From the NCBI GenBank assembly GCA_030065175.1, contig JASJDH010000018.1, positions 1 to 41,771 on the forward strand: a stretch of 41,771 nucleotides of DNA, given 5' to 3'. This document shows positions 38,243 to 41,030 of this stretch, in pieces; position 1 is the stretch's first letter; each line of letters opens with the position of its first letter. Both the position numbers and the translations under genes were made by a program. This DNA is from Leptolyngbyaceae cyanobacterium MO_188.B28 (GTDB lineage Bacteria; Cyanobacteriota; Cyanobacteriia; Phormidesmidales; Phormidesmidaceae). The notes below the pieces were generated by a model that saw nothing but the letters and a program-made list of their open reading frames with translations, had not been told where the DNA came from and did no database searches.

Positions 38243-38640
38243 GCGAAGTCACGCAAAATAGTCTCTTTCTTTCTCGATATGTATGCTGTGTAAACTGCGC
38301 CAAAGATGATTGCTAGATCATAGTTTATAGTCCTATTCAGAATAATGAGAAAAGTTTACGGTCAGATTTTAGACTGTTATTGAGTAACGGGCACTGGTTC
38401 AGTATAATTAAAAGCTAGAATCCTTGTATAAAAGGTGTTACAGCGTTCGAGACTCAGAGAATAGTTTGCCCCCAAATCAGGGCAATTCAACGATATATCA
38501 GGGTTTTCAGAAACGGCTAATAAGAATACTCTCAATAAGCTGACAGCAATAGGTTTGCTGAGAATTTCCGTATCTCTTGCTAAACAAGACTTCCAGGATC
38601 TAACTAGACTGAACCAGTGCCCAAACGACACCTGGTAGGT
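38243..38640. other. AT-rich intergenic region upstream of glycosyltransferases
   Basis: The promoter of the GT2-GT2-GT4 run is expected here. An 84-codon minus-strand frame (38377-38631) has no recognisable features and is left out. The right part may include the lost left end of the decayed IS element; I could not locate a terminal repeat. Confidence 0.4.
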
Positions 38641-39195
38641 TTTGCTGATAACGTAACCGCCGCCATTCTACAAAGCGAAAGCGGTTGCTTGAGTCGATGG
38701 TTGACTTACCTGAGCCCTAGGAACTGCAAAGCCCCAAGTCATATGGAGCGCTTAAAATACTTTGTGCATAATCCCAAGATTACGGCTGAAATCTTCTATT
38801 CCCCGTTGGTGAGGCAATTTCTCAAAGCCTGGGAGGGGATGTCTATCCTGCTGAGGCTCGATACCAGCCTGTTGTAGAATCAATATTGCCTGATAGAAGT
38901 GTGTTTTGTCTGGGGAGGCCGTTCTTTTCCATTAGCCCAAAAGGTCATAGAGCACGGCGGCACCACCGTTGGATATGAGGACCGTGTGTTCTGGAAATGG
39001 CCCTCCCTGTCTTGCTGCCCAATTGCCAGATCATCTTGCTCGCTGACAGCGGCTTCGAGCATGGGAAATTGATTCGCTGGTTACAAGTCCATCAATGATC
39101 TTGGGACATTCGGGCCAAATCGGATCTGAAGGTCACTTTGGCGAATAGTCAAACCAGGCATGTTTCAGACCTCTTACCCCCAACTGACGAAGTTT
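38641..39195 (+). pseudogene. Decayed IS4-type DDE transposase
   Basis: Three consecutive stretches read as one transposase when joined. The first (to 38874) includes LSRWLTYLSPRNCKAPSH, RLKYFVHNPKITAEIFY and LRLDTSLL, with the first catalytic Asp. A TAG at 38875 replaces an expected Trp, and the same frame goes on with NQYCLIEVCFVWGGRSFPLA and EHGGTTVGYED. A frameshift near 38990 leads to LLPNCQIILLADSGFEHGKL (second Asp) and IRWLQVHQ. A TGA is then followed by WDIRAKSDLKVTLANSQTRH and VSDLLPPTDE. The part with the catalytic Glu is missing. The IS4 assignment rests on the LDTS and LLADxGF motifs. Confidence 0.82.
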
Positions 39196-40065
39196 TCTGA
39201 ACCACCAAGGTTTATCTACAAAGAGCTGAGAGTATTCAATTAGTGCAGCTTTGAGGAGTTTGTTCCTAGTTTCAATATTGAGAGGTTCACCAGTATTCGG
39301 CAACTTTGACATATGGACAATAAATTCCGAACCGAGAACTAAAATCTCTTGTATGGTGAGTCCCACAATACCTAGATCATTCAATTCAGCCAAAATGTAT
39401 TGAAATGAGCTAGGGGTAAATCTCGAGCAATGACTGTCAACATACTCACCTTTATCTGAATTTTTAAGAATTTCAAATGCTGTCCTGTGTGACTGAGACA
39501 AGCTTGCGGATTTAATGCTAGGCTCTTCATCCGCAGTAATATCTAATTGTGCATGTAAGCTATGCGCATCATAGACACAGCCTAAAGATGGTTTCTTTAC
39601 ATCACAATAGTAAGCGTCAAGTAAGTCCCCTGTTGAAGAAAGTTGCCTGAAGATATCAAAGCATCTAGTACTAATTGGAATAGCCATTGAAAGAACACCA
39701 TCACAGGCGAGTAGGTGTTCACAATCCTTTAGAAACTTTATCGGATTAGGAAGATGCTCAAAGTTATGCGATGAGACAATGTATTTGAATTCCCTCTTTT
39801 TGACTTGAATACTCGACTCAATACTTTCTTTAAGTTGGATGCCGTTATAAACGATATCTACCTCTTCTATGAGATCTAATTTAGAGGAGTCTATGTATGG
39901 ATCAGCTAATAGCTTTTCCTTAAGCTGTTCTGTCGAAAATACGTCAACTGTGGTAACCCTATAACCATCTCTTTTGGGACAGAGGGGATTCATGTAGGGG
40001 CCGATCTCTATACCAGCTTCTGCTTTCGAGGTGTACCGGGTGATACTTTTTTTGCGAGATGTCAT
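39133..40065 (-). CDS. SAM-dependent methyltransferase with 3' end inside a transposase remnant
   Basis: About 310 aa from the ATG at 40065. Motif I is GIEIGPYMNPLCPKRDGY, and then come VTTVDVFSTEQLKEK, YIVSSHNFEHLPNPIKFL (post-I and motif-IV region) and a LSMAIPISTRCFDIFR segment, matching a methyltransferase family found in polysaccharide clusters. An ATG at 40230 would overlap the upstream stop as ATGA, but the added 55 residues look unrelated. The last 20 residues or so and the stop codon come from DNA antisense to the decayed transposase, so the native C-terminus may have been replaced. It lies downstream of the oxygenase gene. Confidence 0.8.
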   Translation of the reverse strand: MTSRKKSITRYTSKAEAGIEIGPYMNPLCPKRDGYRVTTVDVFSTEQLKEKLLADPYIDSSKLDLIEEVDIVYNGIQLKESIESSIQVKKREFKYIVSSHNFEHLPNPIKFLKDCEHLLACDGVLSMAIPISTRCFDIFRQLSSTGDLLDAYYCDVKKPSLGCVYDAHSLHAQLDITADEEPSIKSASLSQSHRTAFEILKNSDKGEYVDSHCSRFTPSSFQYILAELNDLGIVGLTIQEILVLGSEFIVHMSKLPNTGEPLNIETRNKLLKAALIEYSQLFVDKPWWFRKLRQLGVRGLKHAWFDYSPK

Positions 40066-40226: not shown

Positions 40227-41030
40227 TCATTCAGTCAAAGTTCTATATACCTGTGAACTTTGCTTAACGTCGGAACGCCTACGAATCAAGACTTCAATTT
40301 CTGGATCGCCCTGCTGCTCTTTAGTCGGAACAAACAGCGCCCTTTGACGAGAACTAATACCATTGCGGGGAGCTGACAGATAATAGAGCGCTAAGGATCG
40401 CCTAACAATACCTTCAGGACATAGTATTGGATTGGGTAGACCATGCCAGCTCTTACAGCCCGTATCAAAAAGCACCGCTCGGTTAAACTTACAATCTATA
40501 GTCTTGACAAGCTCAGCCGGTTTATTGGTCTCGTTATCATGGGACCAAAACTCTAACCCCCCCCCCCACTCGGGTTGCCAATCAGGAGTTACATAAATCA
40601 ACAAATTTAACCGGCGTTCCAACTTTAACTTTGGGTGAATTGAATAGTCTAAGTGAATATTCAACTTTCCACCCCTACTGTGTGCATGCAAGCCGCCGCC
40701 ATGTAAACCAGGGTCGGCGTAAAGCTTTTGGATACCTGACAAAGCTTGCAACTCTAACAGGAAAGAATCACTATTTAATTGGCTAAATAGCCGATACAGC
40801 AAAGGTGGAAATATATTCCAGTTATTTAATGCTTTCTTATTCTCAATAGAGTTGGAATAAGTGTACCAAGCATAATCATCGTACTCTACAAAATCCCTAC
40901 ATATTTGAGAAATGACTTCATCTGCAAGGAAATCATCCAGGACAATATGTGGGAATGGTTCAGCAGTTGAAAAAGATCCTGCCTTTCCTACGAGATCTAT
41001 ATCTACGTTTAAAATTTCCTTATGAAGCAT
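40227..41030 (-). CDS. 2OG-Fe(II) oxygenase, prolyl-4-hydroxylase-like
   Basis: The 267-aa protein has the N-terminal pattern EPFPHIVLDDFL common to this superfamily. The iron-binding HxD lies in NIHLDYS (His126, Asp128), the distal His in SWHGLPNP (His196), and the 2-oxoglutarate Arg near residues 210-211 in VRRSLALYY. Double-stranded beta-helix strands such as LNLLIYVTPDWQPEWGGGLE are clear. These enzymes hydroxylate proteins, sugars or lipids; in glycan clusters they are often of unknown substrate. It is followed on the same strand by the methyltransferase gene. Confidence 0.9.
   Translation of the reverse strand: MLHKEILNVDIDLVGKAGSFSTAEPFPHIVLDDFLADEVISQICRDFVEYDDYAWYTYSNSIENKKALNNWNIFPPLLYRLFSQLNSDSFLLELQALSGIQKLYADPGLHGGGLHAHSRGGKLNIHLDYSIHPKLKLERRLNLLIYVTPDWQPEWGGGLEFWSHDNETNKPAELVKTIDCKFNRAVLFDTGCKSWHGLPNPILCPEGIVRRSLALYYLSAPRNGISSRQRALFVPTKEQQGDPEIEVLIRRRSDVKQSSQVYRTLTE

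Follow-up and report, generated by a model that had tools for sequence, protein, structure and literature searches.

Genes whose final codons and stop are provided by a mobile element have already been described, and the locus presented here is one more such case, derived from a decayed IS4-like copy. In Coxiella burnetii, the elements QMITE1 and QMITE2 overlap the 3' ends of genes by 1–50 bp, and Dugway EnhC carries a 33-residue extension that comes from a MITE (PMC5896051). As in our locus, the coding sequence of these chromosomal genes ends, stop included, in mobile DNA. However, the elements in question are MITEs, whereas here the donor is an IS4-family element that has decayed, carries an internal deletion and has its transposase gene read antisense. 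The in-frame fusions of bacterial MITEs and RPEs are similar in that mobile DNA has turned into the coding sequence of another gene, but what PMC2229807 describes are small, many-copy repeats with open frames of their own, while we deal with a single IS remnant and a single gene.

A methyltransferase gene that ends in IS DNA

The window, that is, the whole stretch of 41,771 nucleotides analysed here, comes from a Leptolyngbyaceae cyanobacterium (MO_188.B28). Its right part holds genes that we take, from their translations, to be putative sugar and glycan genes. The methyltransferase gene and the IS remnant at its 3' end are composed of the following features:

39133..40065, minus strand: methyltransferase ORF, 310 aa, ATG at 40065, stop codon 39133-39135
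39210..40065, minus strand: native methyltransferase part, residues 1-285 plus the first base of codon 286
39133..39209, minus strand: IS-derived 3' end of the methyltransferase, residues 286-310 (PWWFRKLRQLGVRGLKHAWFDYSPK) plus the TGA stop
39191..39209, plus strand: right terminal inverted repeat of the IS, IS nt 1291-1309, 17/19 identical to the intact copy
39190..39191: point at which IS nt 751 now meets nt 1291 after a 539-bp internal deletion
38622..39190, plus strand: part of the interior of an IS4-family transposase gene (IS nt 182-751), 86% identity with the intact copy, interrupted by stops and gaps

The start of the gene deserves a comment. The ORF list places it at 40230, which gives a protein of 365 aa, and it was this longer form that scored above the cut-off of 27 in a profile search against Pfam PF13489 (Methyltransf_23; E 6.4e-7, 29.7 bits). 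We prefer the start at 40065 on the evidence of the alignments, in which the relatives begin at about this ATG and nothing supports the 40230 form. A 2OG-Fe(II) oxygenase gene (Pfam PF13640) lies at 40227-41030, and its end overlaps the long methyltransferase form by 4 bases.

A DNA search of the organism's own genome matched 38622-39190 to an intact IS on contig C179 at 86% identity (E 1.1e-188). At 39133-39190, inside the methyltransferase 3' end, 51 of the 58 bases are identical to the intact IS. Plus-strand frame 3 beneath this 3' end reads IRAKSDLKVTLANSQTRHVSDLLPPTDE, where the intact transposase of the same genome has IRAKSDLKITLANGQTRHVSELLPPTDE. An initial sequence-only reading had claimed that the last codons and the stop of the methyltransferase are the antisense of a transposase, and these matches bear it out. 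A second old IS fragment, on contig C620, matches window positions 39069-39193 at 86%. At the level of these alignments, a chance likeness of the 39133-39190 region to the IS is excluded.

The border of the IS could be placed exactly. When the right-end repeat of the intact copy was searched in the window, allowing up to 3 mismatches, a single match appeared (39191-39209, minus strand, 2 mismatches, 0.01 expected), and it directly follows the transposase match. Since 39191-39209 is the right terminal repeat of the IS, the border is at 39209, inside codon 286. The last 25 of the 310 residues and the TGA are IS antisense DNA. The sequence-only reading had recognised this origin but allowed the tail only some 20 codons, too few because the terminal repeat at 39191-39209 also belongs to it, making 25 residues. 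Its proposal of a chimeric C-terminus holds, as the native frame meets the IS end at 39209, crosses it and stops within IS DNA.

The frame itself tells part of the history. If the right end of an intact IS is entered in the same phase, a TAG follows immediately, but the window repeat reads CTTGG instead of CTTAG, and past the repeat and the deletion junction the frame stays open for about 19 more codons, through antisense transposase DNA, to the TGA. As the intact IS gives TAG at once, the present 25-residue tail needs both a changed terminal repeat and the 539-bp deletion. The G at the CTTGG position is also found at several IS ends elsewhere (C155, C310 and C412). The C620 fragment, read by eye, has the same TGA context, so the TGA was probably already present in the IS variant.

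The window copy as a whole consists of IS nt 182-751 followed by 1291-1309, and its left end is entirely missing. Its transposase gene is not intact, with stops in all three frames, gaps and both gene ends missing, and the copy is dead. The DNA itself shows which IS this is, where its right end lies, that part of its interior is deleted and how the frame runs.

The intact IS and its kin in the genome

The intact IS on C179 is 1309 bp long, and its ends, both written inward, are CTTGGTGATGCAGAAAACT and CTTAGTGGTGCAGAAAACT. Its transposase (L002) matched Pfam DDE_Tnp_1 (PF01609) at 1e-10, above the cut-off, which identifies it as a DDE transposase. The best family model for it was NCBIfam transpos_IS4_2 (NF033591), at 7.6e-33 and 114 bits, below the cut-off of 152, and by these profiles the element appears to be IS4-like and divergent. 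Terminal inverted repeats are present at both ends of the intact copy and only at the right end of the window copy. We detected by eye a 9-bp target duplication (ATTTGAGCA) at the intact copy; its left flank was read from contig C595, whose sequence overlaps that of the C179 end, and both contigs are taken to show the same IS copy. The intact copy has inverted repeats like the IS4 family (PF01609, NF033591), and its divergent DDE transposase and 9-bp duplication appear to fit that family as well, from which the window copy differs in being dead, in having lost its left end and the 539 internal bp, and in its stops and gaps.

A loosened pattern of the terminal repeat found 17 sites in the own genome and none with the reversed control; the pattern was loosened after the window variant had been seen, so that these counts are no independent test of the window site, as the search of the window with the intact end is. 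Ten of the 17 sites are within 150 bp of a contig end, as happens with repeats in draft assemblies. At C310 14181-14350 (L074/L075) there is a 170-bp element with terminal repeats of the IS type and a 10-bp target duplication (CTATGAAGGC, by eye), likely a MITE of this IS. On C209 (L026, 1396 to about 1730), the left 202 bp of an old IS variant join the 3' half of an HU-like gene. This partner presumably codes for an HU-type DNA-binding protein. The join lies in CTGGTGGGTTT, where the frames of the IS and the gene disagree, and we take LVGF to be common to both proteins.

The missing left side

On the other side of the remnant, and at the native side of the IS border, two more features have to be considered:

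38389..38621: MITE-like element, 233 bp, with terminal inverted repeats (ACTGGTTCAGT type), directly next to the truncated left side of the IS
39210..39218: presumed remaining 9-bp target copy (GTTTATCTA), with no partner copy in the window

The MITE-like element recurs on C428 (85%) and in the other genome of the genus (84%), where no other part of the locus DNA found a match. No clear target duplication was seen by eye around it. The sequence GTTTATCTA occurs once in the window and beside none of the other listed repeat sites of the genome (two of these show only 4-5 flank bases, also different). An insertion is not proven here by a duplicated target, as the left IS end and the second target copy are absent.

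The sequence-only reading attributed the loss of the original 3' end to the insertion of the IS. The frame does end in IS DNA, but an insertion by itself would not have cost the gene its native 3' end, which should still lie on the far side of the IS. As the window no longer contains the left end of the IS and GTTTATCTA has no partner, a later rearrangement probably removed the rest, and any distal part of the methyltransferase that still existed is either lost or located elsewhere. Past the MITE-like element (38243-38388, minus strand) we found nothing recognisable as methyltransferase remains and a stop within the first 17 codons in all three frames, a comparison limited by the variable tails of the relatives, which give little to match.

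We consider it very probable that an IS4-family element inserted into the 3' end of the methyltransferase and then decayed, leaving the frame to end in IS DNA. The 1309-bp element would have entered with its transposase pointing toward the methyltransferase and its right end at 39209. Decay would then have taken 539 bp from its interior. The left end would have been lost as well, up to the MITE-like element, and with it all sequence on its far side, any surviving 3' end of the methyltransferase included. The methyltransferase frame now crosses the IS terminal repeat and then 58 bases of antisense transposase DNA, the last three of which are its TGA stop. This order of events, and the loss of some native residues, is what we infer from the remains.

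Relatives of the methyltransferase

The relatives that we found are 25-43% identical to the window protein. An alignment of three sequences, searched against genome_contigs, retrieved two from Pseudomonas (43 and 39%) and others from Smaragdicoccus, Cyanobium and an uncultured cyanobacterium, as well as a short match in Zoogloeaceae. Further relatives came from a contig of the viral set, from plasmid-borne genes and from members of the window organism's own family. One of them (L040 2501-3355, 34%) is on a contig classed as viral in IMG/VR. In a cyanobacterial MAG (L014 and L038, one locus), a protein of 610 residues carries this methyltransferase domain as its C-terminal half.

A related genome with an intact 3' end was sought, as the sequence-only reading had suggested, and the search returned relatives, but only distant ones (the best at 43%) and no near-identical intact allele. 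No close allele without the IS was detected in 59 related genomes (8 matching at E 1e-3), in the sample of the phylum (3/386 at 1e-20) or in the order (6/63 at 1e-25), counts that all include the organism's own genome. In genome_contigs, the single protein used as query found no relative among 13 stretches and the three-sequence alignment found 6 in 57, none of them close. One relative, not close, was present among 32 stretches of viral_contigs; the plasmids gave 7 matching records, none close; and there was no methyltransferase match in the phages or, by sequence, in the PDB at E up to 1.

The residues that are invariant in seven aligned relatives are kept in the window protein. The local matches of the relatives end at or before residue 279 of the 311-residue query, equivalent to 278 in the 310-aa protein and short of the IS border. 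In a seven-row alignment with six relatives, 30-46 of 95-99 positions are identical to the window protein in residues 1-100, 5-10 of 27-30 in residues 253-285, and 1-6 of 4-25 in residues 286-310. Because the relatives already become less similar within residues 253-285, the junction is sharply defined by the IS repeat alone and not by the family.

The 25-residue tail was compared with the ends of ten relatives by shuffling, with uncorrected counts from 92 (L006) to 1950 of 2000, and no convincing likeness was found; the tails of the relatives are variable anyway. A resemblance to relatives that end in W..PLR...LR was considered and rejected, the shuffle test in the ten relatives not being convincing. 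The loci of the same ten, 3.5-5.8 kb each, contained no trace of the transposase, of IS DNA or of the terminal repeat, and the window, used as control, was positive. Both tests left out L014 (same locus as L038), L032 (same place as L007), L015, L016, L018, L031, L033, L039, the weak matches L009-L012 and the plasmid hits H3-H7. Homologs without the IS that shared the tail would have told against a chimera, and ten IS-free relatives do not convincingly share it. This comparison appears to favour the chimera, but it is a weak test because the relatives are distant and their tails variable, and it is the DNA evidence that carries the case.

In the structure model of the methyltransferase (built on 7 sequences, mean pLDDT 66, pTM 0.68), we read predicted strands and helices in a Rossmann-like order up to residue 254, and a helix at 264-283. 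The pLDDT is <50 at residues 284-286 and 288-310, weak evidence on the tail because the model rests on 7 sequences and other parts, residues 133-143 and 158-214, are also <50. Methyltransferase activity after the formation of the chimera is plausible, since the core is predicted to be complete before the junction. The enzyme may still fold, judging from the conserved core, which ends well before the junction.

Alternative explanations

The chimera could also belong to a decaying pseudogene that was broken by the insertion, the open frame being a leftover. A tail made of IS antisense DNA, IS and MITE-like pieces in the surroundings and the poorly modelled residues 133-143 and 158-214 would all fit such a fate. 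We see it as possible but doubtful, as the 310 codons of the gene are uninterrupted whereas the IS remnant next to it contains several stops and gaps, and as the residues invariant in the relatives are retained.

Another question is when the 539 bp disappeared. The IS might have arrived already deleted, as a mobilised short derivative, and the 170-bp element on C310, which shares the IS ends and has a target duplication, is an example of a short form in this genome. However, among the own-genome matches there is no sister copy with the 751/1291 join, and the left IS end is missing at the window copy; we find deletion before arrival rather unlikely. It is improbable that the tail, an antisense transposase peptide, was built stepwise (IS end, repeat without TAG, internal deletion) and that selection keeps it because it functions as the C-terminal segment of a methyltransferase of the glycan cluster.

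Draft genomes raise the suspicion that unrelated pieces were joined through a repeat during assembly. This one has 8.48 Mb in 650 contigs (the window is C573), and the IS does break the assembly elsewhere, as seen in the 10 of 17 terminal-repeat sites at ≤150 bp from a contig end. Nevertheless, the window copy has diverged by ca. 14% from the intact one, a distance at which mis-joining through this repeat is unlikely, and on the right the junction coincides exactly with the IS terminal repeat, as insertion predicts, so that we give an artefact very little credit. Finally, a native tail with a fortuitous likeness to the transposase, for which one could invoke the loosely similar W..PLR...LR ends of some relatives and the low count of L006, can practically be dismissed, given that the stretch closes a 569-base match, is identical to IS DNA at 51 of 58 bases and is followed by the IS terminal repeat.

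What the chimeric tail means

The chimeric tail is real but represents an ordinary kind of genome wear, and it does not indicate a new mechanism. For annotators, the last 25 residues of this protein are unsuitable for family models. The locus shows within well-defined limits how a decaying IS rewrites gene ends, as the border of the IS, its internal deletion and the stop are all placed to the base.
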